This document shows, in pieces, positions 1 through 36,612 of a stretch of DNA of 36,612 nt. How positions within the stretch are numbered: the stretch's first letter is position 1; each line of letters begins with the position of its first letter. The notes beneath the pieces were generated by a model that saw nothing but the letters and a program-made list of their open reading frames with translations, was not told where the DNA came from and did not search any database. Position numbers and translations under genes: made by a program. The stretch comes from Comamonadaceae bacterium (GTDB lineage: Bacteria; Pseudomonadota; Gammaproteobacteria; Burkholderiales; Burkholderiaceae_C): NCBI GenBank assembly GCA_013823655.1, contig PNMN01000003.1, forward strand, positions 1 through 36,612, given 5' to 3'.

Positions 1-1
1 C

Positions 2-5053: not shown

Positions 5054-5082
5054 ATTCCTCACGATTCCTGCTCCTGGCTTGC

Positions 5083-6330
5083 TCATAAAAACCTGACCGG
5101 GTGAAACGCTGCGCCCCTGCTGGCTCCCATCGGGTGGGCTCCTGCGAACGCCTCGGCGGCACGTCCCGGCCATGCCGTCAGGCCGATTTCGTCGTCTTCG
5201 AGGTAGCAACCCGGGTCCTCGGCCCACGGGTCACCGCTGACCTGCTGCGCGCGAACGCGCGTGTTGCCGCCGCAGATGTCGAGCTGCGCGCAGCCCCCGC
5301 AACGCCCGCCCACGCGGCGCGGGCGCTGCTTCAGACCGGCCATCAGCGCATCGCTGGTGTCTGGCCAGATCGCGGAGAACGGCCGCTCACGCACGCTGCC
5401 CAGGCTGTGGTGCCACCACATGGTGTCGGGGTGCACGACGCCGAGGTTGTCGATGTTGGCCACGTTGATGCCGCTCGAATTGCCGCCCCACGCACGCAGA
5501 TGCGCCTCCAGCGCAAGCGCCCGGTGCGGCAGGTGCTGGCGCACCCATTGCAGCAGGTAGACCCCGTCGGCATCGTTGTTGCCGGTGACGTATTCGCGCC
5601 CGATGCCGTCTTGCGCGTCGCGCCAGGCGGTTTCGAAAAGCAGGTCGAGCGCCTTGCGCGTGGCCTCGAAATGCGCGTCCTTGGCGCGGTGGATGTTGCC
5701 GCGCCCGGCGTAGTTGAGGTGCGAAAAGTAAAACTTCTCCGCCCCTTCGTCGCGCATCAGCGCCAGCAACGCGGGCAACTCGTCGGCGTTGAGTGCGGTC
5801 ATCGTGTAGCGCAGACCCACCTTGACGCCGCGCTCGCGCAGCAGCCGCACCCCGTTCAGACTGAGGGCAAAGGCCCCGTTTTGCCGACGAAAGCGGTCGT
5901 GTACCGCGCCGATGCCGTCCAGGCTGATGCCCACGTAGTCGAACCGGGCCTGCTCGATGCGCTCGGCCATCGCTGCGTCGATCAGTGTGCCGTTGCTCGA
6001 CAGCCCGACATAAAAGCCCATCGCCCGTGCCCGCAGGCCGATCTCGAACAGGTCGGGACGCAGCAGCGGTTCGCCACCGGAGAGGATCAGCACCGGCACG
6101 CCGAAGGCCTTCAGATCGTCCATGACCTCGAACACCTCCGCCGTGGAGAGTTCGCCCGCGTAGTCGTGATCGGCCGACAGGGCGTAGCAGTGCTTGCAGG
6201 TCAGGTTGCAGCGGCGGATCAGGTTCCAGATGACCACCGGCCCCCCCGGCTGCAGCCGTCGCGGTGGCGCCATCACCCCGTCACGCTCGGCTGCGGCCAG
6301 CAGCCTCATGTATTGCGAAACACGAAACAT
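5083..6330 (-). CDS. nirJ: Heme d1 biosynthesis radical SAM protein NirJ
   Basis: CNLTCKHCY radical SAM motif, GGEPLLRPD, SPASM-like C-terminal Cys cluster (CGGCAQLDICGGNTRVRA...C). Start 6330 or 6336. Confidence 0.93.
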   Translation of the reverse strand: MFRVSQYMRLLAAAERDGVMAPPRRLQPGGPVVIWNLIRRCNLTCKHCYALSADHDYAGELSTAEVFEVMDDLKAFGVPVLILSGGEPLLRPDLFEIGLRARAMGFYVGLSSNGTLIDAAMAERIEQARFDYVGISLDGIGAVHDRFRRQNGAFALSLNGVRLLRERGVKVGLRYTMTALNADELPALLALMRDEGAEKFYFSHLNYAGRGNIHRAKDAHFEATRKALDLLFETAWRDAQDGIGREYVTGNNDADGVYLLQWVRQHLPHRALALEAHLRAWGGNSSGINVANIDNLGVVHPDTMWWHHSLGSVRERPFSAIWPDTSDALMAGLKQRPRRVGGRCGGCAQLDICGGNTRVRAQQVSGDPWAEDPGCYLEDDEIGLTAWPGRAAEAFAGAHPMGASRGAAFHPVRFL

Positions 6331-8352: not shown

Positions 8353-9579
8353 CTAGAAACCCACGCGCGCCGCACGCGCGGTGAAGAAGATGCCACTGGG
8401 TGCATCGACATCGATCGTGGCCAGGGTTTCAAAACCCGTGGTGTCGATCACCGACACCCGGTTGGAGTCGCGCGAGCTGATCCACACCGCTTCCCCGCGC
8501 GGCGTGAATTCCATGTGCATCACGGCCTTGCCGGGCTCCAAGGTGCGCACGACACGCTGTGTGACGGTGTCGATGACTTGCACCCGGTGGTAATCGGGCA
8601 TGGCGAAGTTGACCCACACCTGGCGACCGTCGGGTCGGGCCATCACGAACACGGGTTGCCCCACCACAGGAATGCGCGCGGTTTCTACCCAGGTTCCGGT
8701 ATTGGCCACCAGCACCTCATGGCGACCGATCGCCGGCAGGTAGGCCTGCCCACCCGCCACCGCCCAGCCCCGCAGGTGCGGCATCTTGTACACCGGCAGC
8801 GGCTGGCCACCCCGACCGTAATCGGCCAGGATGCGACGCACTTTGGGCGCGTCCTCCCACAGGTCGATCATCGCGAACCCGTCCTCACCGAACAGGCCGG
8901 CAATGTAGTGGCGGCCATTCGGTGTGATGAGCGCGTCGTAGGGCTGGCGACCGATGCCTTCGAAGCGCGTCACGCGTGGACGTGTCGGCTCCGACAGGTC
9001 CGCGATCCAGATCGCATCGGCGTCGAACAGTGAAAAGATGAAGCGGCGCCCCGGCAGGTCCCTGAGTCCGACCACGCGCGAGCGCTGGCCTGACGCGGTC
9101 TCGGCCGGGATGTCGGCCACCAGGGCCAGCGTTTTGGCGTCGAACACCTTGATGCCGCCGGGGGTGTAGTTCTGCGCGACCACCAGGCTGCCGTCCTGCG
9201 AGATCGCGCCACCGATCGAGTTGCCCGCCTGCTGCACCCGCGCCACGATGCGTTGCGTGAGCAGGTTCACCTTCGTGAGCGCGCCGTCGCGACCAAACAC
9301 GTAGACGTTGGCAGCGTCGCGCGAAAACACCACCGAGGCGTGCGAAAGATCGCCCAACCCGCTGACTTCACCCCGCGCAGTGCGCGAGCTGGTGTTGATG
9401 ATGGTCAGCGCACCGCGCCCGCGCTGCACCACCACGCCGAGGTCTCCGGTGCCTTGCGGTGGTCCCTGGACAGGCGCCGACAACGTCGGCTCAAGCGACC
9501 CGCAGCCCTGAAGCAACAGCGGCGCGCCGAGAGCAAGCGTGCCACCGATGGCCGTGCCCAGAAGTGAGCGGCGCCTCAT
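8353..9579 (-). CDS. nirF: Heme d1 biosynthesis protein NirF
   Basis: Lipoprotein-like signal (LLLQGCG), d1-type beta propeller without heme c motif, located between nirC and nirDL. Confidence 0.9.
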   Translation of the reverse strand: MRRRSLLGTAIGGTLALGAPLLLQGCGSLEPTLSAPVQGPPQGTGDLGVVVQRGRGALTIINTSSRTARGEVSGLGDLSHASVVFSRDAANVYVFGRDGALTKVNLLTQRIVARVQQAGNSIGGAISQDGSLVVAQNYTPGGIKVFDAKTLALVADIPAETASGQRSRVVGLRDLPGRRFIFSLFDADAIWIADLSEPTRPRVTRFEGIGRQPYDALITPNGRHYIAGLFGEDGFAMIDLWEDAPKVRRILADYGRGGQPLPVYKMPHLRGWAVAGGQAYLPAIGRHEVLVANTGTWVETARIPVVGQPVFVMARPDGRQVWVNFAMPDYHRVQVIDTVTQRVVRTLEPGKAVMHMEFTPRGEAVWISSRDSNRVSVIDTTGFETLATIDVDAPSGIFFTARAARVGF

Positions 9580-9950
9580 TGGGATGGCTCCGTCAAGGTC
9601 GGCAGGCCGCGCGCGAGCTGGTTCGCGATCCACTGCGCTTCGGCTGCGCTCAGAAACGCGCGCCAAGGCGGCATCGGCGTGCCGGGGCGACCGTAGAAGA
9701 TGACGGCGGCCATCGAGTCGAGCGGTTTGTCGGCCATGGCCTGCTGCGTCAGTGCCGGACCGAGTCCGCCGGTCAAGTGCAGGCCGTGGCACGAGCCACA
9801 TTCCTGGCGCACGACGTGCAGCAGTTCCCGTTGTCGCTGCGGCCCGGGCTCGGCGTCGGCAAACACGCTGGGCGCGCACCCCAGCGCGACCGGAACCAGC
9901 AGCGCTGCTGCCAGATGCCGCCTCACGGTCCGCTCAAGATCACGACGCAC
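9576..9950 (-). CDS. nirC: Cytochrome c55X, NirC
   Basis: Signal peptide, single CGSCH heme motif, MPPW axial Met region, stop overlaps nirF start. Confidence 0.85.
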   Translation of the reverse strand: MRRDLERTVRRHLAAALLVPVALGCAPSVFADAEPGPQRQRELLHVVRQECGSCHGLHLTGGLGPALTQQAMADKPLDSMAAVIFYGRPGTPMPPWRAFLSAAEAQWIANQLARGLPTLTEPSQ

Positions 9951-12194: not shown

Positions 12195-12208
12195 TTGTTT
12201 TGGTTCAA
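12195..12208 (+). promoter_or_regulatory. FNR/Dnr-like box TTGTTTTGGTTCAA upstream of the NOR/oxidase-like operon
   Basis: TTG-N8-CAA about 93 bp upstream of the ATG at 12301. Confidence 0.45.
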
Positions 12209-12300: not shown

Positions 12301-12474
12301 ATGAGTCTCAACGAACAAGCCAACGAAAGCAGCGAAGACAACGAGCCCGTGCCCTGGATGCAGCGCCTGCTCGACAACCCTTTCATTCTGCTGTTCCTGG
12401 GCGTCATGATTCCCATGGTCGTCTACACGCTGTGGGGCGTGATCGACATCCTCACCGTTCCGCTGGCCAAGTGA
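12301..12474 (+). CDS. Small single-TM protein (57 aa), putative accessory subunit of the heme-copper complex
   Basis: ATG after AGGAAAAAA; MSLNEQANESSEDNEPVPWMQRLLDNPFILLFLGVMIPMVVYTLWGVIDILTVPLAK; first gene of the operon. Confidence 0.7.
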   Translation: MSLNEQANESSEDNEPVPWMQRLLDNPFILLFLGVMIPMVVYTLWGVIDILTVPLAK

Positions 12475-12529
12475 TGGCCGCCATCGCGCGGCATTCGCCG
12501 TCCTGTTCAACCGTGCAAGGGGAATCCCA

Positions 12530-13069
12530 ATGAGCGCCATCCTGCCACCCGCCGAACGACTGTGGTGGAAACAGCCGCTGGACCGTGTCGAAGGCACTTG
12601 GATCGTGATCGCTTTTGTCTGGTGCCTGATCATGTTTTTCATGATGGTCGGCTGGCATGTCTACGGCAAGCAGAATCTCTCGACCGAGACCTACAAGACC
12701 ACGCCGGAGATGTTCAGCGCCAAAACGCAGGCCATGGTCGACAAGTACACCGTTCGCACCGAAACCGACGAAAAAATCCCAGTGGTGGCCCCACCGCCGG
12801 GCAGCGACGTCTACCTGATCGCGCGCTTGTGGAGCTTCTGGCCGATTCTCGAACTCGAGAAAGACAAAACCTACCGTCTGCACCTGACATCCCTGGACTA
12901 CAACCACGGGTTCTCGCTGCAGCCGGCCAACATCAACGTCCAGGTCGTGCCGGGATACCAGCACGTGCTGACGGTCACACCCAACCAGAGTGGAGTCTTC
13001 TCGGTGGTGTGTAACGAGTATTGCGGCATCAACCATCACGCGATGGTCGGTCGCATCTACGTCAAGTGA
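12530..13069 (+). CDS. Heme-copper oxidase/NO reductase subunit II with CuA site
   Basis: One N-terminal TM, cupredoxin domain, upstream ligand His (DYNHGF), complete CuA motif C-NEY-C-GIN-H-HA-M. Confidence 0.88.
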   Translation: MSAILPPAERLWWKQPLDRVEGTWIVIAFVWCLIMFFMMVGWHVYGKQNLSTETYKTTPEMFSAKTQAMVDKYTVRTETDEKIPVVAPPPGSDVYLIARLWSFWPILELEKDKTYRLHLTSLDYNHGFSLQPANINVQVVPGYQHVLTVTPNQSGVFSVVCNEYCGINHHAMVGRIYVK

Positions 13070-13080
13070 GTGAGACCACC

Positions 13081-14781
13081 ATGTCCAACGTGACCACCTA
13101 CCGGACCTGCCCGCGCTCGGGCCTGCAGTTCGAAGCCCAAGCCGAAAAACTGATGCTGGCCAACGCCGTCGTGGCGGTGGTTTTCCTGCTCATCGGCGGC
13201 ATCCTGGCCATCGGCGTCGTGCTGACACGCTGGCCCGCAGTGCACTGGCTTGAGGCCGACACCTTCTACCAGGTGCTCACGGCCCACGGCATCGACATGC
13301 TGATCTTCTGGATCATCTTCTTCGAAGTTGCGGTGCTGTATTTCTGTTCATCGACACTGCTGCGCTGCCGCATCGCCACGCCCAGATGGGCTTGGGCTTC
13401 GTTCGTGCTCATGCTGGTGGGTGCCATCATGAACAACGTTGCCGTGTTCCAGGGCGGCTCCAGCGTCATGATGACATCCTATGTGCCGATGATGGCCGCG
13501 CCCTCGTTCTACCTCGGGCTGATCCTGTTCGCGGTCGGCGCGCTGATCGCGTGTTTTGTGTTCCTGGGCACGCTGGTGATCGCCAAGAAGGAAAAGACTT
13601 ACACCGGCTCGGTGCCATTGGTCACCTTCGGCGCCATCACGGCGGCCATCATTGCGATCTTCACCATCGTCTCCGGCGCGATCATCCTGATCCCCACCTG
13701 GCTGCTGTCGCTGGGTGTGATCAGCCATGTCGATCCGCTGATTTACCGCACCATCTGGTGGGCCTTCGGTCACTCGTCGCAGCAAATCAACGTCGCCGTG
13801 CACATCTCGATCTGGTACGCAGTGGCGGCGATCGCTTTCGGCGCCAAACCGATGAGCGAGCGTGTCAGCCGTGGTGCCTTCCTGCTTTACATCCTGTTCC
13901 TGCAGCTCGCCAGCGCCCACCACCTGCTGGCCGACCCGGGCGTGAGCACGGCGTGGAAGATCGTCAACACCAGCTACTTCATGTATTTCGCGGTGCTGGC
14001 CTCGATGATCCATGGCCTGACGATTCCCGGCGCGATGGAAGTGGCGCAGCGCGCCAAGGGCTACAACAACGGTTTGTTCGAGTGGCTGCGCAAGGCGCCC
14101 TGGGGCAATCCGGTGTTCTCGGGCGTGTTCATCTCGATCATTGGCTTTGGTTTCCTGGGCGGGATCTCGGGCGTGATGATGGGCACCGAGCAACTCAACA
14201 TGATCATTCACAACACAATCTACGTACCGGGGCACTTCCACGCCACCGTGGTGATCGGCACCACGCTGTCCTTCATGTCACTGACCTACTTCCTGATTCC
14301 GGTGCTGTTCCGCCGTGAAATGATCGCACCCAAGCTGGCCCAATGGCAGCCCTACCTGTTCGGCCTGTCGATGTACTTCTTCGCCCTCGTGATGATGGGT
14401 GCGGGCACGCTGGGTGTCTCACGCCGACACTGGGACATGGCCTTCAGCGGCGCGGCGCTGGCCTACGATTGGCCAGGACTGGCCTACCTGATGATGGGCC
14501 TGGTCGGCATCACAGGCATGGCGGCCATCGCCGGTGGCGCGATCTACATCTACGTCACGGTGGGTTCTCTGCTGTGGGGTCGCCGTCTGGACAACGGCAC
14601 CGTCAGCGCCAAAACCACGCCGATCCCGCGGACGGCCCCCAATGTGGCGATTCAGAGCCACGGCTCGGCTGGCTTTGCGGCACCCGGCACCTTCGTCCTG
14701 GCGATGATTTTCCTCGTCGCCTTCGTGGTGTATTACTTCATCAACTGGAAGTACCTCTCCACGCTGTGGGGTCTGAGCTGA
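13081..14781 (+). CDS. Heme-copper subunit I lacking the cross-linked Tyr; putative NO reductase catalytic subunit
   Basis: Helix II TAHGIDMLIFW; helix VI GHSSQQ in place of GHPEVY; helix VII SAHHLLADPG; helix X GHFHATVVIG. All heme/CuB His present, Tyr absent. Confidence 0.85.
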   Translation: MSNVTTYRTCPRSGLQFEAQAEKLMLANAVVAVVFLLIGGILAIGVVLTRWPAVHWLEADTFYQVLTAHGIDMLIFWIIFFEVAVLYFCSSTLLRCRIATPRWAWASFVLMLVGAIMNNVAVFQGGSSVMMTSYVPMMAAPSFYLGLILFAVGALIACFVFLGTLVIAKKEKTYTGSVPLVTFGAITAAIIAIFTIVSGAIILIPTWLLSLGVISHVDPLIYRTIWWAFGHSSQQINVAVHISIWYAVAAIAFGAKPMSERVSRGAFLLYILFLQLASAHHLLADPGVSTAWKIVNTSYFMYFAVLASMIHGLTIPGAMEVAQRAKGYNNGLFEWLRKAPWGNPVFSGVFISIIGFGFLGGISGVMMGTEQLNMIIHNTIYVPGHFHATVVIGTTLSFMSLTYFLIPVLFRREMIAPKLAQWQPYLFGLSMYFFALVMMGAGTLGVSRRHWDMAFSGAALAYDWPGLAYLMMGLVGITGMAAIAGGAIYIYVTVGSLLWGRRLDNGTVSAKTTPIPRTAPNVAIQSHGSAGFAAPGTFVLAMIFLVAFVVYYFINWKYLSTLWGLS

Positions 14782-14824
14782 GCGCTCGCCCCCGTCAAGC
14801 CCACACCGAGCACAGGGACCGACC

Positions 14825-15721
14825 ATGGATGCCACGCTGAACCCCGGCCACGACACCATCATGCGGCGTGTGCGCACCGTGGTCGGTCTTTTCAAACTGC
14901 GCATTGGCGTGGTGGTGATGATCAGTGCGCTGGCCGGGCTGGCCATCACCCCCGGCGCGGCGCTGAGCAGCGTGCAGGTGCTGGTGCTGGCTTTGTCGGT
15001 GCTGGTGGCGTCGGCCAGTGCGGGCGCCTTCAACCAGTACGCCGAGCGCCATGTTGACCACCTGATGAAGCGCACCGCCGGGCGCGCATTCGTCACTGGC
15101 GCCTTGTCGGACTCCCGGCTGTGGCTGCTGTTGATGGCGGTGATGTTGGCCGGTGCAGTGGGGGCGGCTTGGGTCGCGATCAATTCGCTGTCGGCGCTGT
15201 TTGTTTTCCTGGGCGCTTTTTTCTACGCCGTGGTCTACACGGTGTGGCTCAAGCGGCGCAGCGCCATGAACATCGTCATCGGTGGTCTTTCGGGCAGTTT
15301 TGCGGTGCTGGCCGGCGGTGCCGCAGTCGACCCCGCACTGGGTCCCATGCCGCTGCTGCTGGCGCTGGTCTTGTTCCTGTGGACGCCGCCGCATTTCTGG
15401 AGCCTGGCGATCGCCAACCACGCCGACTACGCCGCCGCAGGGGTGCCCATGCTGCCCGTGGTGGTAGGGCCCGAGCGTGCGGCAGTGGTCGTGTTCTGGA
15501 GCACCCTGGCCCTGGTGCTGGCGTCGTTGCTGCCACTGGCCTACGGGGCCGGCGCGGTCTACGGCGCCGGTGCGCTGGCGGGAGGCACCGTCTTCCTGCA
15601 CCGCGCGTGGGTGCTGATGCGCCGACCCGGGCGTGGCACGGCCATGCGCTGCTTCTTTGCCTCGATGGCGCAGCTCAGCCTGCTGCTGCTGGCTGCGATG
15701 CTCGATGCCGCGATGCGCTGA
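14825..15721 (+). CDS. ctaB: Protoheme IX farnesyltransferase (heme O synthase) CtaB-like
   Basis: UbiA family; NQYAERHVDHLMKRT, YTVWLKRRSAMNIVIGGLSG, LFLWTPPHFWSLAI. Confidence 0.88.
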   Translation: MDATLNPGHDTIMRRVRTVVGLFKLRIGVVVMISALAGLAITPGAALSSVQVLVLALSVLVASASAGAFNQYAERHVDHLMKRTAGRAFVTGALSDSRLWLLLMAVMLAGAVGAAWVAINSLSALFVFLGAFFYAVVYTVWLKRRSAMNIVIGGLSGSFAVLAGGAAVDPALGPMPLLLALVLFLWTPPHFWSLAIANHADYAAAGVPMLPVVVGPERAAVVVFWSTLALVLASLLPLAYGAGAVYGAGALAGGTVFLHRAWVLMRRPGRGTAMRCFFASMAQLSLLLLAAMLDAAMR

Positions 15722-15746
15722 TCTCGCACTTCACCCGCAGCGCCTG

Positions 15747-16757
15747 ATGGTGCGACCGAACCCGATGCATCGCCACCTTTCCATCGCTCTCTTGTCACCG
15801 CCCCGGCACCGTGCCACCGACTGTGGTGCGCGGACCGGCCTGCGGGGGCTGCTCATGCTCATGGGCGTGTGTCTGTGCCTCGGACTGGCAAGCGGTTACG
15901 TCTGGGCTGCGGCACCCGCAGCCCCGGTGTCCAACACCACCGGTGGCAGCGCTGTGCAGGCACTGGACGAAACCACGGCGCTGGCCGCCGGGCGCTCGGC
16001 CATCGGTCGCGACATCGGTGAGCACAGCCTGATCGACAGCAACGGTCGCGCACTGCGGCTGTCTTCCTATCGCGGCAAGCCGCTGGTGGTGAGCTTCATC
16101 TACACCGGCTGCTTCCAGATCTGCCCCAGCGGCACCAAGGCGCTGGACGAGGCGGTCAAGGGCCTGGAAAAGGCTTTCGGCCCCGACAGCTTTCACATCG
16201 TCAGCATCGGTTTCAACCAACCCTTTGACTCGCCTGCGGCCATGCGCGCTTTTGCCGCGCAGCAAGGCATCACGGCGCGCAACTGGGATTTCCTGAGCCC
16301 GTCGCCGGCCGCCGTGGACAAGCTCACCCACGCCTTTGGTTTCAGCTATGTGCCCACGCCAGCCGGGTTCGACCATGTGCTGATGGCCACCGTGGTCAAC
16401 GCCGAAGGCCGCATTCACGCACAGGTGTTTGGCGACCGGCTCACGGCCAGTCAGGTGGGTGAACCGCTGCGCCAGTTGCTGCGTGCCAGCGGCGTGCCAC
16501 CCGAGCTGACACTGTCCAGCGTGATCGAGCGCGTGCGCGTGCTGTGCACCGTGTACGACCCTGAGACCGACAGCTACCGCTACGACTTCTCACTGATCTT
16601 CACGATCGCCGGGGGCATCACCTTTTTCATCGCCATGCTGTTCTTCTTTGCTGGCGAATGGCGCGACCGACGGCGTCGGCAACGCGTGCTGCGTCAATCG
16701 GTGGCTGCGGCGGCAACCAAAACGCCACTTGACGCTGCAGCACCGGTGGTGCGCTGA
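15747..16757 (+). CDS. SCO1/SenC family copper chaperone with C-terminal TM extension
   Basis: CFQICPS (CX3C), conserved His (FDHVLM), C-terminal TM segment FSLIFTIAGGITFFIAMLFFFAGEW. Confidence 0.82.
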   Translation: MVRPNPMHRHLSIALLSPPRHRATDCGARTGLRGLLMLMGVCLCLGLASGYVWAAAPAAPVSNTTGGSAVQALDETTALAAGRSAIGRDIGEHSLIDSNGRALRLSSYRGKPLVVSFIYTGCFQICPSGTKALDEAVKGLEKAFGPDSFHIVSIGFNQPFDSPAAMRAFAAQQGITARNWDFLSPSPAAVDKLTHAFGFSYVPTPAGFDHVLMATVVNAEGRIHAQVFGDRLTASQVGEPLRQLLRASGVPPELTLSSVIERVRVLCTVYDPETDSYRYDFSLIFTIAGGITFFIAMLFFFAGEWRDRRRRQRVLRQSVAAAATKTPLDAAAPVVR

Positions 16758-16766
16758 GAGCCTCCC

Positions 16767-18332
16767 ATGCAAGCACTGCGCAACACGCGGCTGGCTGGGC
16801 TGGCGGTTTACGTCCGCGTCGAGCGCCTGTTCGATGCCGCCTTCGGCGCCGCGCGCAACCCGCTGCGCCACCTTGGCGCCACCGGCTTCATGCTGTTCTG
16901 GTGGCTGGCCCTGAGCGGCATCTATCTCTACGCCGTGCTCGACACCTCGGTGGCTGGCGCACACCGGTCGATCCAGGCGCTGTCGCAAGGACCTTGGGCC
17001 GTGGGCGGCGTGTTGCGCAGCCTGCACCGCTACTCGGCCGATGCCTTTGTGCTGGTGATGGGCCTGCACCTGCTGCGTGAAGGGCTGCACGGTCGCTACC
17101 ATGGCTTTCGGCGCCACCCCTGGCTCACCGGTGTGCCGCTGCTGCCGCTGGTCTTTGTCTGCGCCGTGGGCGGTTTCTGGCTCAACTGGGATCAACTGGG
17201 GCAATTCTCTGCCGTGGCCAGCGCCGAATGGCTGGACCGTCTGCCGTTGATGGCTTCGTCGATATCGCGCAACTTCATCAGCGCCGCAGCGGTGAATGAC
17301 CGCCTGTTCTCGCTGTTCGTTTTCATCCACCTGGGCGTGCCGCTGCTGCTGGTGTTCGGCCTGTGGTTCCACATCCAGCGTCTGAGTCATGCCCAAGTGT
17401 TTCCGCCGCGCCCGGTGGCGCTGGGCACCAGCGGGGTGCTGCTGGCGCTGGCGCTGGCGCTGCCGGTGCTGAGCCACCCACCGGCCGACATGGCCGTGGT
17501 GCCGACGGTGCTGGCCTACGACTGGCTGCTCTTGTTCATCCACCCGCTGGCCGCCGCATTCTCCAACGACACACTGTGGCTGCTGCTCGCGCTGGTCCTT
17601 CTGACGCTGCTGGTCCTGCCCTTCATGCCGCAGCCCGCACCGCCGCCGGTGGCCCAGGTCGATCCCGCCCATTGCAGTGGCTGTCGGCGCTGCATGGCAG
17701 ACTGCCCCTACGCCGCCATCACCATGGCGCCACATCCGTACGAACGCCTCGGTCGTCTCGGGCGTGAGACGGCGGTGGTGGACGCCGACCTGTGCGCGAG
17801 TTGTGGCATCTGCGTCGGTGCCTGCCCGTCCTCGACGCCGTTTCGCAGCGTGGCCCGACTGGTCACCGGCATCGACCTGCCACAAGCCCCGATTGGCGAA
17901 TTGCGCCATCGCCTGCAGCGCCAGTTGGCGGTCATGACGAGCGGGCGCCGCATCGTCGTTTTCGGCTGCGACCACGGTGCCCGGGTGGCCGCACTGGCCG
18001 CGCCCGACGTGGCCCCCTTCAGCCTGGCCTGTGTCGGCATGCTGCCGCCCTCGTTTGTGGAGTACGCCCTGCGCGATGGCGCCGACGGGGTGCTCATCAG
18101 TGGTTGCGCCGAGGGTGCCTGCGAATTCCGGCTCGGTCAGCGCTGGAGCGCCGAGCGCCTGGCCGGTGCGCGCGAGCCACACCTGCGCGCCCACATCCCT
18201 GCCGCGCAATGGGCCACCGCCTGGGCCGACGCAAGTGACGAAGACGGGCTTCGAGCCGCCTTGCAGCAACTGCGCAGACAGCTCGATGAGCATGTCGCTC
18301 GCCCTTCCAGACTGGAGGCGGAAAGTGCCTGA
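16767..18332 (+). CDS. Fusion: diheme cytochrome b (bc1 N-terminal type) + 2x[4Fe-4S] ferredoxin + MvhD/hydrogenase delta-like domain
   Basis: Paired His: HRYSADAFVLVMGLH and HLGVPLLLVFGLWFH; CSGCRRCMADCP and CASCGICVGACP; MvhD-like VVFGCDHGA...DGVLISGCAEGACEFRLG. Confidence 0.85.
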   Translation: MQALRNTRLAGLAVYVRVERLFDAAFGAARNPLRHLGATGFMLFWWLALSGIYLYAVLDTSVAGAHRSIQALSQGPWAVGGVLRSLHRYSADAFVLVMGLHLLREGLHGRYHGFRRHPWLTGVPLLPLVFVCAVGGFWLNWDQLGQFSAVASAEWLDRLPLMASSISRNFISAAAVNDRLFSLFVFIHLGVPLLLVFGLWFHIQRLSHAQVFPPRPVALGTSGVLLALALALPVLSHPPADMAVVPTVLAYDWLLLFIHPLAAAFSNDTLWLLLALVLLTLLVLPFMPQPAPPPVAQVDPAHCSGCRRCMADCPYAAITMAPHPYERLGRLGRETAVVDADLCASCGICVGACPSSTPFRSVARLVTGIDLPQAPIGELRHRLQRQLAVMTSGRRIVVFGCDHGARVAALAAPDVAPFSLACVGMLPPSFVEYALRDGADGVLISGCAEGACEFRLGQRWSAERLAGAREPHLRAHIPAAQWATAWADASDEDGLRAALQQLRRQLDEHVARPSRLEAESA

Positions 18333-18843
18333 ACGTGCGCCCGTCACACCCGCAGCCTGGATCGGCCAGGTGCTGCTGTACGCCTTGTTTGCGCTGGTCA
18401 TCGGCGTCTTTTCGCGCTGGCCTCCCTACCAGGTGCTGCCCGAAGGTCAGGCCCTCATCAAACTGAGCTTCGTGCACCAGGGCAAGCTGGTGTCCGACTG
18501 CCGCCCCACACCGCCCGAAGAGCTGGCCCGGCTGCAGCCCACCATGCGAGCGCCACTCCAGTGTCCGCGTGAGCGCTCACCGGTGACGGTCGAGCTCGAG
18601 CTGGACGGTCAACTGGTGCATGGGCAGACCGCGCAACCCGCTGGTCTGTCGCGCGACGGCAACTCGGTCGTCTACCACAAGCTGCAAGTGCCGGCCGGCG
18701 AACACCACCTGAGCGTGCGCATCAAAGACGACATCCGCAGCCCCGGCTTCAACCATCGGCGCGAGGCCCGCGTGACGCTGCGTTCGGCCCAGATCATGGT
18801 GATCGATTTCAACGCCGAATCAGGTGAGATCACATTGCAATGA
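18325..18843 (+). CDS. Membrane-anchored periplasmic protein of unknown function
   Basis: GTG start after GGAGG; single N-terminal TM then soluble domain; overlaps upstream gene stop and downstream ATG (ATGA at 18840). Confidence 0.7.
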   Translation: MPERAPVTPAAWIGQVLLYALFALVIGVFSRWPPYQVLPEGQALIKLSFVHQGKLVSDCRPTPPEELARLQPTMRAPLQCPRERSPVTVELELDGQLVHGQTAQPAGLSRDGNSVVYHKLQVPAGEHHLSVRIKDDIRSPGFNHRREARVTLRSAQIMVIDFNAESGEITLQ

Positions 18844-20285
18844 ACCCACTGAACCCAAGCTTCGACGGCCACCGCTCACCCCCCCGCAGCAGCGCGCAAG
18901 CCCAGGCAGGCCACCTCTACGAACTGCGCCTGAGCAGCGACACCAGCCTGGCGCTGGCGCGTGGCTGGCTCTGGCTGGGCCTGCTGGCGCTGATTGTCTC
19001 GGGTCTGTTCGCGGTGGTGCTCGTGCTGGCGCGCACGCCGGGCCTGAATCAGTTTCTGCCACTGGCCGATCTCTTTCGCGTGGCGCTGGTCGTGCATGTC
19101 GATTTGTCGGTGCTGGTGTGGTTCACCGCCATGGCAGGCCTGCTGTGGAGCCTGAACAGCAGCGCAGCAGGTCGGCGCACCGGCTGGGCCGCCTGGGGCT
19201 TGTGCGCACTGGGAACGGCGCTGATGTGCGTGGCGCCATTTGCCGACCCGGGCACCCCGCTGATGGCCAACTACATCCCGGTGATTGACGGACCCGTCTT
19301 CCTCACCGGGCTGCTGCTGTTCGGTGTCGGCACCACGCTGCTGGTGCTGCGCAGTCTGTGGGCCGCCTTGCCTCCGGGGCTGCGGCTGGACGGTGCCGCC
19401 GCACTGCGTTTTGGTCTCAACGCCAGCGTCGTGGCCACGGCCGTGGCGCTGCTGGCCTTTGCCGCGTCCTTTGTGCTGACACCGGCCTCGCTGTCCGGCA
19501 AGCCCTACTACGAAATCCTGTTCTGGGGCGGTGGCCATGCGCTGCAGTTCACCTGGACCTTGCTGATGCTGGTCGGATGGCTGTGGCTGGCCGGCGCCTG
19601 CGGCATGCGGGTACCCCTGAGCCCGCGCCTGGCCTTGCTGATGTTTGCGCTGGCGCTGGTCAGCGTGTTTGTCACGCCCTACGCCTACCTGGCGCACGAC
19701 ATCGCCAGCGTCGAGCACCGCAACCTGCACACCTGGGCCATGCGCATCGGCGGTGGCCTGGCCATCGCGCCAGTGACGCTGGCGGTGGGCTGGGGGCTGA
19801 TGCAGGCCCGCGCACAGCCGCTACAGCCCAACCAGCAGCCGCTGCGCGTGGCGCTGCTGTCGTCGATGCTGCTGTTTGCCGTCGGCGGCATCATCGGTGT
19901 GCTGATCAACGGCAACAACGTTCGCATTCCGGCCCATTACCACGGCAGCATCGTCGGCGTGACGCTGGCGCTGATGGGCCTGGTCTACCACCTGTTGCCG
20001 CAGTTGGGCTGGCGCGCGCCCGCAGGGCGTCTGGCCGTCTGGCAGCCGGCACTGTATGGCGTCGGGCAGTTGATGCACATCGTGGGGCTGGTGTGGTCGG
20101 GCGGCTACGGCGTACAACGCAAAGTGGCCGGCAGCGAACAGGTGCTGCGCAGCACAGCCGAAGTGGCGGGCATGGGCCTGATGGGGCTTGGCGGGCTGAT
20201 TGCCATCATCGGGGGCATGCTCTTCGTGGTCGTGGTGCTGCGCGCCATGCGCGCGCCTGCTGTGCGTGCTGCGTCCAATTCCTGA
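18840..20285 (+). CDS. Divergent heme-copper oxidase-superfamily subunit I homolog (unassigned family)
   Basis: Multi-TM; helix II VVHVDLSVLVWF; helix VI FWGGGHALQF; helix X NNVRIPAHYHGSIVGVTLALMG; canonical HH of helix VII not seen (EHRNLHTW instead). Confidence 0.7.
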   Translation: MNPLNPSFDGHRSPPRSSAQAQAGHLYELRLSSDTSLALARGWLWLGLLALIVSGLFAVVLVLARTPGLNQFLPLADLFRVALVVHVDLSVLVWFTAMAGLLWSLNSSAAGRRTGWAAWGLCALGTALMCVAPFADPGTPLMANYIPVIDGPVFLTGLLLFGVGTTLLVLRSLWAALPPGLRLDGAAALRFGLNASVVATAVALLAFAASFVLTPASLSGKPYYEILFWGGGHALQFTWTLLMLVGWLWLAGACGMRVPLSPRLALLMFALALVSVFVTPYAYLAHDIASVEHRNLHTWAMRIGGGLAIAPVTLAVGWGLMQARAQPLQPNQQPLRVALLSSMLLFAVGGIIGVLINGNNVRIPAHYHGSIVGVTLALMGLVYHLLPQLGWRAPAGRLAVWQPALYGVGQLMHIVGLVWSGGYGVQRKVAGSEQVLRSTAEVAGMGLMGLGGLIAIIGGMLFVVVVLRAMRAPAVRAASNS

Positions 20286-20292
20286 AGCGCCC

Positions 20293-22200
20293 ATGAGCAA
20301 CCCGATCCAGGTGCTGCTGCGCTGGCCCTTCATGCACGTCGAGGCACTGTTCAACCGTGCCTTCGGCGACCGCATCAACCCGCTGTACCACCTGGGTTCG
20401 ATCACCTTCTTCCTGTTCTGGATCATCGGTGGCAGCGGCCTGTACCTGTACATCTTCTTCGACACCAGCGTGAGCGGCGCCTACGATTCGGTGGAGGCCA
20501 TGACGCACCAGCAGTGGTTTGCCGGCGGCGTGATGCGCAGCATGCACCGCTACGCTTCCGATGCCATGGTGATCACGATGTTGGTGCACATGCTGCGCTA
20601 CTACGCGTTCGACCGCTTGCGCGGTTTTCGCTCCTTTTCCTGGCTGACCGGCGTGGCGCTGATCTGGGGGGTGTTCGCCTCGGGCGTGAACGGTTTCATG
20701 CTGCCCTGGGACCGGCTGGCGCAATACGTCACCATCGCCAGTTTTGAATGGCTGGACTGGCTGCCCAGCTTCGGTGGCACGCTGATCCGCAACTTCATCG
20801 TCCCCAGCAGCGTCAGCGACCGCCTGTTTTCGCTGCTGGTGTTCGTCCACATCGGCGTGCCGCTGCTGGTGCTGCTGCTGATGTGGATCCATGTGCAGCG
20901 GGTGCCCAATGCCAGTCTGCAACCACCGCGGCCCATCGCCATCGGCATGGTGCTGTTGCTGCTGGCCCTGTCGCTGCTGCAGCCGGTGCACAGCCAAGGG
21001 GGTGCCGCCGACCTGGCCAGCGCCGTCACGCGACTCGATCTCGATTGGTTTTTGCTGTGGCTGTTCCCGCTCATCGACCGCTGGCCCCTGGGCTGGGTGT
21101 GGGCGCTGGTGTCGCTGGCCACGCTGCTGCTGCTGGTTCTGCCCTGGCTGCCGCCCAAGCGCCGCCGCAACGCCGGGGACGCGCTGCAAATGACGCTGCA
21201 CCCCGGTGGCACCAAGATCGCCCTGCGCTCGGGCGAAACCCTGCTCGAAGCGGGCCTGCGTGCCGGCCTGGCGTTGCCTTACGAATGCCGCAACGGCGGC
21301 TGTGGTGTCTGCCTGTGCAGCGTGCACCACGGCAAGGTTGACCACGGGCACTACCAGGCCGACGCATTGAGTGCCGAAATGCGCCAGCGTGGTCAGGCAC
21401 TGATGTGCTGCGCCACAGCGCTGGAAGATGTCGAGATCATTGTCGATGTGCCATCTCTGATCCACTCCGATGCCCCGAGCTTGCGACGCTGGCACGGGCG
21501 CGTGCAGCAGATGACCCGCCTCGGCCCCGACGTGATGCGCTTGCTGGTGACGCCGCCCGATCAAGGCATCGCCTTTACCGCCGGTCAGTACCTCGACATC
21601 GTGCTGGCCGACGGTCAGCGCCGCGCCTTCTCCTTCGCCAGCCCACCGAACGGTGGCGGCCTGATCGAGCTGCACGTGGCGCTGGTTCCCGGTGGACGTT
21701 TCACGACCCAGGTCTTTGAATCGATGCAGGAAGGCGACACACTGGAACTCGAAGGTCCCTTCGGCCACTTCACGCTCACCGAAAGCGCGCGGCCGATCCT
21801 GTTCGTGGCGGGCGCAACCGGTTTTGCCCCGGTCAAGAGCATCGTTGAAGATGCCTTTCAGCGTGGTATCCAGCGCCCCATGCGCCTGTACTGGGGAGCA
21901 CGCAACATCGGCGACCTGTACCTGCTGGACCTGGCGCGCCAATGGCAGGCAGACCATCCCCACTTCGAGTTCGTGCCGGTGCTGTCCGAACCCGACCCGG
22001 ACTGGAATGGCCGCACCGGCCTGGTCCACGAGGCCATGCTCAGTGATTTTCCCGATCTGCGCGAACACGAAATATACGTCTGCGGTTCGCTGATCATGGT
22101 AGAAGTTGCCATCCCGGCCTTCTTGGCCCATGGTGCTTCCCAGAACCACTGTTTCTCCGACGCCTTCACGACACAGCGACCGCATCAGCCTCCATCCTGA
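20293..22200 (+). CDS. Fusion: diheme cytochrome b + plant-type [2Fe-2S] ferredoxin + FAD/NAD(P)H oxidoreductase
   Basis: HRYASDAMVITMLVH and HIGVPLLVLLLMWIH; CRNGGCGVCLC...C; FAD motif RAFSFAS; NAD-binding GATGFAPVKS and YVCGSLIMVE. Confidence 0.88.
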   Translation: MSNPIQVLLRWPFMHVEALFNRAFGDRINPLYHLGSITFFLFWIIGGSGLYLYIFFDTSVSGAYDSVEAMTHQQWFAGGVMRSMHRYASDAMVITMLVHMLRYYAFDRLRGFRSFSWLTGVALIWGVFASGVNGFMLPWDRLAQYVTIASFEWLDWLPSFGGTLIRNFIVPSSVSDRLFSLLVFVHIGVPLLVLLLMWIHVQRVPNASLQPPRPIAIGMVLLLLALSLLQPVHSQGGAADLASAVTRLDLDWFLLWLFPLIDRWPLGWVWALVSLATLLLLVLPWLPPKRRRNAGDALQMTLHPGGTKIALRSGETLLEAGLRAGLALPYECRNGGCGVCLCSVHHGKVDHGHYQADALSAEMRQRGQALMCCATALEDVEIIVDVPSLIHSDAPSLRRWHGRVQQMTRLGPDVMRLLVTPPDQGIAFTAGQYLDIVLADGQRRAFSFASPPNGGGLIELHVALVPGGRFTTQVFESMQEGDTLELEGPFGHFTLTESARPILFVAGATGFAPVKSIVEDAFQRGIQRPMRLYWGARNIGDLYLLDLARQWQADHPHFEFVPVLSEPDPDWNGRTGLVHEAMLSDFPDLREHEIYVCGSLIMVEVAIPAFLAHGASQNHCFSDAFTTQRPHQPPS

Positions 22201-22221: not shown

Positions 22222-22923
22222 ATGGAAATCCGATCCTCGCCCCCCAGTTTCGACATACCCCGCTACCTGTCGACGCTGCCACAGTTCAGTGAGCTCGACG
22301 CAGCCGACCAGCAGCGCCTGGCCAAAGGCTGCTCGCTGCGTCGCCTGCAGCGCGGCGACATGGTCCAGCATGCCGGTGCACCCTGCGAGGCATTCCACAT
22401 CACGGTGGTGGGGCAGATCAAGTTGTTTGCCTTGTCTGCCGAAGGAAAGGAGAAGGTGGTGGAGATCGTGGGACCGAGCGGCAGTTTTGGCGAGGCGCCG
22501 ATGTTTCTGGACCAACCCTGTCTGCTCAGCGCACTGGCGCTCACCGACGTGCTGCTGCTGGACGTCAACCGACGCATCCTTCTGGATGAGATCGAACGCA
22601 ATCCCAGCATCGCCATGTGCATGCTGGCGGGCTTGTCGCGTCGGCTGCACGGCATGGTCCGCGACGTGCAGTCCTATGCACTGCACAGCGGTCTTCATCG
22701 CGTGATCGGCTATTTGCTGCGCGAGAGTGATGGCCTGGCGACCCAGGCATTCACGTTGTCATTGCCGGTCAGCAAGGCCACCGTCGCCTCGCGCCTGTCG
22801 CTGACGCCGGAGTACTTCTCGCGTGTGTTGCACGAACTGGAGACGGCCCGCCTGATCGCCATCGACCGGCGCGACATCCACGTGCTGGATCTGGCCCGTC
22901 TGGCCGCGTATTCGCCGCCGTAG
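22222..22923 (+). CDS. Crp/Fnr family regulator (Dnr/NnrR-like) 1
   Basis: cNMP-binding-like domain, HTH with recognition helix TPEYFSRVLHELE (ExxSR), no FNR-type N-terminal Cys cluster. Confidence 0.85.
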   Translation: MEIRSSPPSFDIPRYLSTLPQFSELDAADQQRLAKGCSLRRLQRGDMVQHAGAPCEAFHITVVGQIKLFALSAEGKEKVVEIVGPSGSFGEAPMFLDQPCLLSALALTDVLLLDVNRRILLDEIERNPSIAMCMLAGLSRRLHGMVRDVQSYALHSGLHRVIGYLLRESDGLATQAFTLSLPVSKATVASRLSLTPEYFSRVLHELETARLIAIDRRDIHVLDLARLAAYSPP

Positions 22924-23069: not shown

Positions 23070-23759
23070 ATGCAATCGCAACAGATCGATCTGCCGCGCT
23101 ACCTGTCGGTCTTGCCGCTGTTTGGCGACCTGAGAACCGACGAGCTCGTCCGGCTGGCCGAGGGCTGCCAGCTGCGTCGCATGCCTCGGGGCGACATGGT
23201 CTGCCGCATGGGCCAGCCCTGCGAAGAGTTCCACGTGGTGGTGGTGGGCCAGGTGAAGCTGTTTGCGATCTCGCCCGACGGTCATGAAAAGGTGATTGAG
23301 CTGGTTGGACCTGGCAACAGCTTTGGCGAAGCCCTGATGTTCAGCGGTCGTGCCTATGTGGTCAATGTTCAGACCTTGTCCGACAGCCTCTTGCTGGTGG
23401 TCAGCAAGGCCGCCGTTCTGGCCGAGGTGGCGCGTGACCCGCGCTTTGCGATGCGCTTGCTCACCAATCTCTCGCGGCGCATGCAAAGCCTCATCAACGA
23501 CGTGCAATCGGACGCTTTGCACAGCGGCATGCAGCGCGTGATCGGCTACTTGCTGCGCGAGAGCGAGAGCCAGGCGCCCCAGGTTTTCACGCTGTCATTG
23601 CCGGCCAGCAAGGCCACCATCGCCTCGCGCCTGTCGCTGACGCCGGAGTACTTCTCGCGCGTGTTGCACGAACTGGAGGCCGCCGGTTTGATCGTTATCG
23701 ACAAACGCGAGGTGCGCATCCTTGACGCAGCCAGGCTGGCGCGTTACCCGGCGACCTGA
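23070..23759 (+). CDS. Crp/Fnr family regulator (Dnr/NnrR-like) 2
   Basis: Same architecture as the upstream gene; C-terminal HTH almost identical (SKATIASRLSLTPEYFSRVLHELE). Confidence 0.85.
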   Translation: MQSQQIDLPRYLSVLPLFGDLRTDELVRLAEGCQLRRMPRGDMVCRMGQPCEEFHVVVVGQVKLFAISPDGHEKVIELVGPGNSFGEALMFSGRAYVVNVQTLSDSLLLVVSKAAVLAEVARDPRFAMRLLTNLSRRMQSLINDVQSDALHSGMQRVIGYLLRESESQAPQVFTLSLPASKATIASRLSLTPEYFSRVLHELEAAGLIVIDKREVRILDAARLARYPAT

Positions 23760-31027: not shown

Positions 31028-31897
31028 TCAATGCTTGTTAGCCGTGATATCGGCCTTGGCGTCCAGACCCAGCGTGTGACCCAGCGACACGTGATGGAAA
31101 CGTCCGGCGCTGTGGTCGTCGTGGATGGCAAACCCGAAGTTGTAGGTCTTGCCTGCGGTCAAAGCGATGTCGCCCTGCCCGCCGGTGAACTTGCGCGTGA
31201 AGACCACGACCCACTCGTCGCCCTTCTTCTCGCCCTTGGCGTCAACCAACGCCTTGCCACCGTCCATCACGCGTTTGTCGGCAACATGACCGTCGTGCCT
31301 GGCGCCTTTGCTGGTCCATTGCATCAAGTCGTAGTACTTGCCAGTGGCCAGGTTGCCATCCTTCACGTACTTGGTTTTCTTGTCGTCCTTGCCATCGGGC
31401 ATGGTGCGCAGGTCGGCGTGACAGGATTCCCAGCAACCCGACAGGTTGGCCCGCTCGATCTTGTTGTCGTCAAGCATCAGCGTGAGCTTGACCTGGTTGG
31501 TCGGGTCCATTTTCTCGGCGCCGCCACCGGCCGGCTGCTTCCAGCTGAAGCGCAGATAGAGCTGGCTGCCGTCGTGCGCGGCCTGCACGTTGACGGGAAC
31601 AGAACCCGCCTTGCCCTTGATGGGGCGGGGTTCGAGCAACTGCCCGCTGGCCAATTTCTTGCCCATGTCGGCGGCTTCTTGATCGTGGCAACTGGCACAG
31701 CTCTCGCCCTTGCGCAGCGCGCGCGCGCCACTGTGGTCGGAGCCCTTGGTGATCCACTCGATGGGTGAGGCGCCGGGATACAGCAGCGTGATCTTGCTGG
31801 CGGTCACCTTGCTCCAGTCGGGCGGCGCGGCCTGGGCCGAGCCCAGCGTCAAGCCCAGACAGGCGCAGAGCAAGAGAAGGGGGGGTGTGTGTTTCAT
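31028..31897 (-). CDS. nirB: Diheme cytochrome c552-like (NirB / ethylbenzene dehydrogenase-related domain)
   Basis: Signal peptide, CASCH motif plus CWESCH (CX3CH) motif; third gene after nirS-nirT as in nirSTB operons. Confidence 0.65.
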   Translation of the reverse strand: MKHTPPLLLLCACLGLTLGSAQAAPPDWSKVTASKITLLYPGASPIEWITKGSDHSGARALRKGESCASCHDQEAADMGKKLASGQLLEPRPIKGKAGSVPVNVQAAHDGSQLYLRFSWKQPAGGGAEKMDPTNQVKLTLMLDDNKIERANLSGCWESCHADLRTMPDGKDDKKTKYVKDGNLATGKYYDLMQWTSKGARHDGHVADKRVMDGGKALVDAKGEKKGDEWVVVFTRKFTGGQGDIALTAGKTYNFGFAIHDDHSAGRFHHVSLGHTLGLDAKADITANKH

Positions 31898-31936
31898 CAT
31901 CGTTCCTCGCAAATGGGCTGGGGTCGGGGTTGACAT

Positions 31937-32636: not shown

Positions 32637-34313
32637 TCAATAGATGTCGTGCTGCGTGTTCCAGACGTTGAACTTGCCGGTCGGCGTGATCATGTCGGGG
32701 CTGGTGATCACCCTCTTGAGCTTCAGCGTCTTGTCGTCGTAGATCACGATGGCCGACTGGTCGGTCTTGCCACCCCACAGCGAGATCCAGACTTCGTCGC
32801 CCTTTTCGTTGTACTCCTGGTGCACGGCACGGCGCAGCGCCTTGGTCACCGGCAGGCCGGAGTCCTTGGCGACATCGATGCGAACCGGCGGCTTGCTCAG
32901 GTCGCGAATGTCAAACACATAGTTGACCTCGGCCATCTCGCGCTCGGGGTGCATCGGCATGTCGGCCCACAGGTGGTTCGATTTCGGATGCGTCTTGACG
33001 AACAGGTTGCCGGCACCGGGCATCTTCAGCTCTTGGACAACTTTCCAGTTGTACTGCTTGAACTTGGCGTGCTTCGGGTCGTCCGAAGGCGTCGAGATCA
33101 GCGACACCACCGGATCGCCCAGGTGGCCCGTGGCCCAGACTGGGCCGTACTGCGGGTGCATGAAGTTGGCGCCGCGTCCCGGGTGCGGGATCTTGGCGGT
33201 GTCGATCAGTGCCGCCAGCTTGCCGGTCTTGGTGTCCACCGCCGCGATCTTGTTCGAGGCGTTGGCCGCGACCAGGAAGTAGCGCTTGCTGGCGTCCCAG
33301 CCACCGTCATGCAGAAACTTGGCCGACTCGATTTTGGTCGTCTTCAGGTTCTTGATGTCGCTGTAGTCGACCAGCAGGATCATGCCGGTCTCCTTGATGT
33401 TCACCACCCACTCGGGCTTGATGTGCGAGGACACGATCGAGGCCACGCGCGGCTCCGGATGGTACTCGCCGTCGACCGTCATGCCGCGCGTGGAAACCAC
33501 TTTGAGAGGTTCCAGCGTGCCCCCGTCCATGATCGAGTACTGGGGCGGCCAGTAGCTGCCGCCGATCAGGTACTTGTCCTCGTAGCCCTTGAACTTGGAG
33601 GTGTCCACCGAGCGTGCGTCGGAGCCCATGCGGATGGTGGCGACCGTGGTCGGCTTCTCAAACCACATGTCAATCAGTGTCACCAGGCCATCGCGGCCCA
33701 CCGTGTAGACATAGCGGCCCGACAGCGACAGGCGCGAGATATGCACCGCGTAGCCGGTGTCCAGAATCTGCCAGATCTGCTTGGTGTCGCCGTCGATCAG
33801 CGCCAGCTTGCCGGTGTCGCGCAAGGTGGTGGCGAAAACGTTCTTCAAGTTGATGTTGTTCATCTGCTTGGTCGGACGCTGCGCCACCGGCACGATCAGC
33901 TTCCATGAATCCCGCATGTCTTTCAGGCTGAATTCGGGCGGGATCGGTGGCACCTGCTGGATGTAGCGCGCCATGATGTTGATCTCTTCCTTGCTCAGGA
34001 TGTCGTCATAGTTCACCATGCCGCCCTCGGTGCCCAGAGCAATGATTTTCTCCAGGCGCGCGGTGCCCAGTTTGAGCATGCCACCCTCCTGTACCGTGCC
34101 ATCGGGGGCCTTCTTGGACCACAGCGGCTCCAGGTTCTTGCCCGTCGCACCCTTGCGCAGCACACCGTGGCAGCCCGCGCAGCGCTCGAAGTAAATTTTC
34201 TTGCCCACCTCCTGCTCAGCTGCGCTCATGGGCGGTGCGGTCTGGCCGTAGGCCGAGAACGCGCTGACCAGCAGCGCGGCTGCAGCGACGAGGTTGAACT
34301 TGCCTGTCTTCAT
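32637..34313 (-). CDS. nirS: Cytochrome cd1 nitrite reductase NirS
   Basis: Signal peptide, CAGCH motif, d1 propeller (YSIMDGGTLEPL, SHIKPEWVVNIKETG, HPGRGANF), C-terminus FNVWNTQHDIY. Confidence 0.95.
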   Translation of the reverse strand: MKTGKFNLVAAAALLVSAFSAYGQTAPPMSAAEQEVGKKIYFERCAGCHGVLRKGATGKNLEPLWSKKAPDGTVQEGGMLKLGTARLEKIIALGTEGGMVNYDDILSKEEINIMARYIQQVPPIPPEFSLKDMRDSWKLIVPVAQRPTKQMNNINLKNVFATTLRDTGKLALIDGDTKQIWQILDTGYAVHISRLSLSGRYVYTVGRDGLVTLIDMWFEKPTTVATIRMGSDARSVDTSKFKGYEDKYLIGGSYWPPQYSIMDGGTLEPLKVVSTRGMTVDGEYHPEPRVASIVSSHIKPEWVVNIKETGMILLVDYSDIKNLKTTKIESAKFLHDGGWDASKRYFLVAANASNKIAAVDTKTGKLAALIDTAKIPHPGRGANFMHPQYGPVWATGHLGDPVVSLISTPSDDPKHAKFKQYNWKVVQELKMPGAGNLFVKTHPKSNHLWADMPMHPEREMAEVNYVFDIRDLSKPPVRIDVAKDSGLPVTKALRRAVHQEYNEKGDEVWISLWGGKTDQSAIVIYDDKTLKLKRVITSPDMITPTGKFNVWNTQHDIY

Positions 34314-34429
34314 GAAAGAACTCCTTGTATGTTTCGCGCAGCCGGCCCCGTGTTGACGCGAGGCTCGCTGGCGGCTGCATTGCCATGGTGCGAGCGAGGG
34401 CATCGTGCGCTTGGGGGAGTTCTCTGTCC

Positions 34430-34443
34430 TTGAACTGGTTCAA
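34430..34443 (-). promoter_or_regulatory. FNR/Dnr-like palindrome upstream of nirS
   Basis: TTGAA-CTGG-TTCAA (+ strand), perfect half-site symmetry, ~117 bp upstream of the nirS ATG. Confidence 0.6.
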
Positions 34444-35291: not shown

Positions 35292-35399
35292 GGCATTCAG
35301 GGGGCGTGATGAACCGTCAGCGCGGCGAACAGCAACGGGCATCCGATGACAGGCAGGACCACGGCACGGGTGGCGGGGGAGCGGTGCTCATCGGGCTCG

Positions 35400-36542: not shown

Positions 36543-36612
36543 GTCAGTTGCTCCACCGCGCTGCGCGCGACCCGTGGCACATGAAACGGTCCAACCCAGG
36601 GGCACCGCCGGA

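Follow-up and report, generated by a model that had tools for sequence, protein, structure and literature searches.

The 36,612-nucleotide stretch of Comamonadaceae contig PNMN01000003.1 analysed here (the window) carries on its plus strand, at 12301-22200, one nine-gene operon for eNOR, a glutamine-type, B-family-derived nitric oxide (NO) reductase with a cupredoxin subunit II (PMC8756737; PMC11388526). The 3' half of this operon consists of four genes, termed A to D here, that encode two cytochrome b fusions (A and D), an anchored protein (B) and a heme-copper homolog (C). With a probability of roughly 0.58, these genes would constitute the electron-transfer half of the operon, that is, a dedicated redox module by which quinone and/or NAD(P)H/ferredoxin would be coupled to the reduction of NO. 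We infer both the function of A-D and the direction of electron flow from sequence. An original prediction, made from the letters of the window, had treated A-D as a module of their own and did not mention the genes at 12301-16757, which encode a heme-copper NO reductase along with CyoE and SCO assembly proteins. The source genome is 83% complete and in 445 contigs, and most of the loci compared with it come from metagenome-assembled genomes.

Organization of the operon

The nine genes are arranged in the order small protein with one transmembrane (TM) segment, CuA subunit II, heme-copper subunit I, heme-O synthase, SCO, A, B, C and D:

12301..12474, plus strand: small 57-amino-acid, single-TM protein, operon gene 1; conserved (104 homologs), with a place directly 5' of subunit II in almost every eNOR locus
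12530..13069, plus strand: eNOR subunit II, a cupredoxin (COX2 Pfam; full CuA ligand set)
13081..14781, plus strand: eNOR subunit I, COX1 family (COX1 E 1e-63; six His plus the Gln in GHSSQQ)
14825..15721, plus strand: CyoE/CtaB heme-O synthase (TIGR01473 above cut-off)
15633..16757 (limits of the open reading frame, ORF), plus strand: SCO/SenC copper chaperone (PF02630, E 7e-13)
16767..18332, plus strand: A, cytochrome b + 2x[4Fe-4S] + FlpD/MvhD (Pfam Cytochrome_B, Fer4_7 and FlpD)
18325..18843, plus strand: B, one TM anchor and a predicted periplasmic beta-sandwich (AlphaFold model; adjoins A)
18840..20285, plus strand: C, heme-copper subunit I homolog without the TM7 His pair (Pfam COX1, E 7e-18)
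20293..22200, plus strand: D, cytochrome b + [2Fe-2S] + FAD/NAD(P) reductase (Pfam Cytochrome_B, Fer2, FAD_binding_6 and NAD_binding_1)

Position 13081 is the presumed start of subunit I, in an ORF that opens at 13021, and the true start of SCO probably lies within 15747-15861, among the start candidates there. A and B overlap by 8 bp, B and C overlap by 4 bp, and a 7-bp gap separates C from D; B starts with GTG and D with ATG at 20293, and the four proteins are 521 (A), 172 (B), 481 (C) and 635 (D) amino acids long. The four serial ORFs, both overlaps and the gap are just as the original prediction had placed them, and the domains that it claimed for A, C and D are recovered by Pfam, with B being anchored and without a family match. 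These genes are not the product of chance, since the scores of A, C and D exceed curated cut-offs by a wide margin and homologs of all four are found again, within the same operon, across many genera.

Assignment of the upstream enzyme

In subunit I, the six histidines that serve as ligands of the two hemes and CuB (H89, H251, H300, H301, H405 and H407) are all kept and, together with Q255, are found in 100% of 92 homologs. Q255 sits four residues after the TM6 His, in a column occupied by Tyr in aligned aa3 oxidases. eNOR is defined by Gln at this oxidase-Tyr position, whereas sNOR has Asn (PMC8756737, Table A4), and the Gln in the diagnostic column therefore classes the operon as eNOR. Gene order and Pfam matches had first given the label sNOR (norSY-senC), which was ruled out by the presence of Gln, not Asn, in all homologs. 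The window does share with sNOR the cupredoxin-COX1-SenC order with another ORF next, as seen in norSY-senC-orf1 of ammonia oxidisers and coxBA-senC of Nitrosococcus (PMC4940428, PMC3772326), and a small membrane peptide upstream, as in Bacillus relatives (PMC3475470), but it differs at the diagnostic position, with Gln in place of the Asn of sNOR.

Subunit II retains the CuA ligands H126, C161, E163, C165, H169 and M172 (approximately 99-100% conserved in 96 homologs) and lies directly 5' of subunit I, the cupredoxin position typical of eNOR. The Gln and six His of subunit I, a CuA subunit II directly upstream and nearby nir genes are thus likenesses to known eNOR, and the genomic context with nirS, nirEF and nirJ backs the predicted NO reductase activity. 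Two other genomes, G140 (a single contig that is 99% complete) and G284, have no heme-copper proteins besides aa3, cbb3, eNOR and C, making eNOR the sole heme-copper NO reductase there.

Plasmids of Thermus and Thermomicrobium carry eNOR homologs with the GHxxQQ motif, which are also preceded by small ORFs resembling the 57-amino-acid protein and have no A-D genes nearby; the proteobacterial operon differs from these loci in adding A-B and often C and D. On one Thermus plasmid (L254, 2898-11681), genes for a nitrite reductase, a DUF542 (Ric-like) protein and an Rrf2 regulator adjoin eNOR, plausibly as an NO-response cluster.

Co-occurrence and gene order

Two genome samples were surveyed, a class set (n = 369) and a phylum set (n = 299). 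In the class set, A is present in 35 genomes, eNOR subunit I in 34 and both in 33 (33/36 of those carrying either), and the corresponding counts for the phylum set are 33, 30 and 29 (29/34); the Fisher p-values, 1.5e-43 and 7e-35, respectively, take no account of phylogeny. A occurs without eNOR in 2/35 (class) and 4/33 (phylum) A-bearing genomes, and several of the mismatch genomes are incomplete assemblies. For 16 of 28 phylum-sample genomes, A and eNOR are both present without being clustered on the same strand, many of these cases being on different contigs, where assembly breaks are possible. In three of the unlinked genomes, a single contig carries both A and eNOR, either 15-20 kb from each other or in divergent orientation, and six unlinked A-B pairs that were examined adjoin nirS. 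Since A and eNOR are found together even when unlinked, their association exceeds shared operon position.

The co-occurrence of the four genes elsewhere, proposed as a check on the original prediction, was borne out across 131 A loci, where B is adjacent in 124, and C and D lie on the same strand within 8 kb in 76 and 68, respectively, in several gene orders within one operon. C and D are facultative members of the module. The original prediction is supported insofar as the genes co-occur widely and are linked to NO metabolism; a free-standing complex of these four is not supported, the genes being part of the eNOR operon. Eighty loci from titled genome records, which were those matching the window's A most closely and not a random sample, include Accumulibacter, Ramlibacter, Comamonas, Simplicispira, Curvibacter and Piscinibacter. 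Most of them have the order small-II-I-CyoE-SCO-A-B-C-D, the order A-B-D (C being absent or divergent) or the order D-B-A-C. D is missing in most of the first 40 loci mapped, and the notion that it is generally rare was rejected, being true of those 40 but not of the 80 loci nearest the window's A. A short form, small-II-I-CyoE-SCO-A-B, is found on a Defluviimonas plasmid (L098), where a hemerythrin-family gene (14089-14493) comes right after A-B; a hemerythrin ORF is also seen near the eNOR operon of L054.

The cytochrome b fusions A and D

By sequence comparison, A and D are demonstrably paralogous, bc1-type cytochromes b, with electron-transfer tails predicted to be cytosolic and a Qo-like loop predicted to be periplasmic. 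A has six predicted TM segments, two b hemes and a Qo-like D-W motif, with invariant His heme ligands (H87, H101, H188 and H202), invariant Cys for two [4Fe-4S] clusters (C303/306/309/313 and C343/346/349/353) and an FlpD domain (PF02662, E 2e-12) in which C401, C422, C447 and C452 are invariant. In D, the heme His (H85, H99, H186 and H200), the [2Fe-2S] Cys (C332, C337, C340 and C372) and the FAD and NAD motifs are conserved in 73 homologs. Alignment with hhalign to full-length bc1 cytochrome b, spanning the PEWY region, gives probabilities of 99.0 for A and 98.5 for D; in the PEWY loop, A and D align to PVWYF, with D-W alone being invariant in them. A and D resemble the cytochrome b of bc1/b6f in their four bis-heme His and their TM layout, and a D-W, possibly a counterpart of the PEWY motif, stands where that motif has E-W. 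Unlike in Rieske/cytochrome b complexes, they are fused to electron-transfer domains, and neither a Rieske protein nor cytochrome c1/f was found among the Pfam-annotated operon genes or the recurrent neighbour families examined.

In the QmoBC and MvhD-HdrA modules, an FlpD domain and ferredoxin domains of the 4Fe-4S type occur with a membrane cytochrome b. The same combination is present in A, but its cytochrome b is of another family, and no HdrA-type flavoprotein is found among the Pfam-annotated neighbours. Cytosolic NAD(P)-type modules are also shared with the anammox Rieske/cytochrome b complexes (PMC12954380). Two A genes stand in tandem in L211, L212 and L221 and, together with the A/D pairs elsewhere, suggest a cytochrome b dimer. 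Finally, a Chloroflexi protein (RME88945.1) is listed in Table A3 of PMC8756737 as having cytochrome b6, Fe-S, FlpD and cytochrome c domains, a set consistent with periplasmic delivery to heme c.

The anchored protein B

B is probably a membrane-anchored, periplasmic partner of A, to which it is fused in L057 and L077. It possesses an invariant Cys pair (C59 and C80), and its confident AlphaFold model (predicted local distance difference test, pLDDT, 93.5) consists of one TM helix and a beta-sandwich. Searches found no family match in Pfam or NCBIfam and no sequence match in the PDB, and comparison of the model with PDB folds gave no convincing structural relative.

The heme-copper homolog C

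The AlphaFold model of C (pLDDT 87.6) is a 12-TM heme-copper fold with the ba3 oxidase of T. thermophilus as its top PDB match; a sequence search against the PDB returned nothing useful. As in B-family subunit I, C keeps the heme ligands H86, H366 and H368, plus H233, i.e., four of the six His ligands. Across its homologs (n = 105), the TM2 His is present in 104, and the TM6 and TM10 His and the propionate-side R/K pair are kept. Unlike in the ba3 enzyme, the TM7 His-His pair of CuB is found in 0/105 (three HH pairs sit in a loop approximately ten residues further on), the oxidase-Tyr position is Phe in 100/105, and Met301 is invariant. The original prediction had envisaged an NO/O2-reactive site, which C is unlikely to be given the loss of the TM7 pair in 105/105 homologs; on the same ground, the idea of C as the NO-reactive enzyme was rejected. 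C is presumably a CuB-less, non-catalytic heme-copper paralog, and the NO-reactive site is likely to be the upstream eNOR subunit I (13081-14781). A GHxxQ motif common to C and eNOR by itself hints that C descended from eNOR, the C/eNOR tree giving no decision.

In the class sample, C is found in 28/34 eNOR genomes and is missing from 6/34. A search for ammonia monooxygenase (AMO) families, asking if the C-less eNOR genomes are ammonia oxidisers, gave no match there, but the controls were unmatched too. C-family proteins also occur outside eNOR operons (L041, L059-L076), in genomes with or without eNOR, and often lie beside ctaA/cyoE/SCO or an aa3 operon.

Proposed role and alternative explanations

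In the proposed mechanism, A-B, as a homodimer or as an A/D heterodimer, would form a membrane module that swaps electrons between the quinone pool and cytosolic reductant, the latter being a ferredoxin-like protein acting via the FlpD domain of A or NAD(P)H acting via D. On the periplasmic side, the module may pass electrons to the CuA of eNOR, either directly or through cytochrome c or the hemes of C, and NirS is a possible further recipient. This role is favoured by the near-obligate co-occurrence of A with eNOR subunit I (also where the two are unlinked), the adjacency or fusion of B to A, the invariant heme and Fe-S ligands, the hhalign matches of A and D to bc1 cytochrome b, the full CuA set of subunit II and the position of eNOR as sole heme-copper NO reductase in G140 and G284. 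Several points weigh against it. Because subunit II has CuA, a normal bc1-cytochrome c route could serve eNOR, and genome G000 carries a canonical cytochrome b gene. The eNOR loci of Thermus and Thermomicrobium, with no A-D nearby, argue that eNOR itself is independent of A-D; the operon encodes neither a Rieske protein nor a subunit with c-type heme that would explain the periplasmic electron exit from A; and 18 genomes of the class sample have C but no eNOR.

The main rival, although unlikely, is a role in assembly, whereby A-B (with or without C) would give reducing power or a scaffold for equipping heme-copper enzymes, eNOR among them, with copper or heme O/A, rather than turnover electrons. 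It owes its rank to the C homologs outside the operon, which adjoin ctaA in L045, L057, L061, L064, L065, L066, L070, L072 and L077, the aa3 operon in L061, L064, L068, L069 and L072, and cyoE and SCO in other cases, although those of L060 and L067 are without ctaA/cyoE/SCO/aa3 neighbours. Within the operon, A-B-C lie directly 3' of cyoE and SCO; unlinked A-B pairs, however, adjoin nirS, not cyoE/SCO, and Thermomicrobium has eNOR and cyoE without A-D. The D domain resembles the ferredoxin/ferredoxin-reductase pair needed by yeast heme A synthase, but a cytosolic reductase for assembly would not need two transmembrane b hemes and a conserved Qo-like loop.

Distinctly improbable is quinol bifurcation, in which quinol would be oxidised at the Qo-like site of A/D, with one electron passing to NO via eNOR while NAD(P)+ or ferredoxin receives the other through the b hemes. 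The very high oxidising strength of NO would make such bifurcation energetically feasible. The bc1-type cytochrome b core with its N-side Fe-S/flavin modules speaks for it, as does the analogous proposal of bifurcation for the anammox Rieske/cytochrome b complexes with NAD(P) oxidoreductases (PMC12954380). Nevertheless, the operon holds no Rieske or other obvious high-potential one-electron acceptor, and the PEWY motif is degenerate, with D-W alone being kept. A Rieske-less, quinol-bifurcating A/D heterodimer in which B and the CuB-less C provide the way out for electrons, and which ties the reduction of NO by eNOR to that of NAD(P)+ or ferredoxin, would be a long shot.

Finally, it is very improbable that A-D serve respiration or NO stress in general and accompany eNOR while acting independently of it for, although A-B may adjoin nirS away from eNOR and C is found without A-B, A is nearly absent where eNOR is absent (2/35 and 4/33 A-bearing genomes, several being incomplete assemblies).

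Other features of the window

Further features flank the operon:

12195..12208, plus strand: candidate FNR/DNR-type box TTGTTTTGGTTCAA (2 mismatches; weak taken alone)
22222..22923, plus strand: Crp/Fnr-family regulator directly 3' of D (Pfam cNMP_binding and HTH_Crp_2)
23070..23759, plus strand: second Crp/Fnr-family regulator (Pfam)
32640-34403, minus strand: nirS
34668-36605, minus strand: SCO then CtaA (heme A synthase), near nirS

The candidate box lies 93 bp 5' of the first start codon of the operon, and a similar weak FNR/DNR-like box is found at 34430-34443, before nirS. The two Crp/Fnr regulators are tandem paralogs that follow the operon. Also around the operon are nirE, nirF, nirDLGH-type, nirJ and ccm genes, with a small cytochrome c ORF (NirC-like; 9576-9947, minus strand) overlapping the predicted NirF start and a second cd1/cytochrome c protein (NirN-like; 3455-5227, minus strand) that is weakly similar to the window's NirS. 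An ethylbenzene-dehydrogenase-like heme-domain protein is encoded near nirS (31031-31936, minus strand), and EB_dh homologs are likewise near nirS in L055, L085 and L102. CtaA is a recurrent neighbour of C homologs, and in many loci of the Rhodocyclales type it is found upstream of eNOR in divergent orientation. The left end of the window (1-3360, plus strand) holds formate-dehydrogenase-like genes (a molybdopterin subunit and an NADH-4Fe-4S fragment).

Implications

eNOR, one of the less familiar NO reductases, has rarely been studied; it is thought to convert NO to the greenhouse gas nitrous oxide (N2O), of which it is a source. No published description of the A-D set was found, although Murali et al. 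2024 may already cover the operon and, as far as surveyed, the literature does not name what feeds eNOR in proteobacteria. The almost perfect joint inheritance of A(-B) and eNOR points to a concrete, testable and uncharacterised partner, found in Accumulibacter, in numerous genomes of Burkholderiales and Rhodocyclales and on one alphaproteobacterial plasmid. The C family represents widespread heme-copper proteins minus CuB, which matters when oxidases and NO reductases are counted in genomes. If true, a Rieske-less, quinol-bifurcating A/D complex would add a new mode of energy conservation to denitrification.

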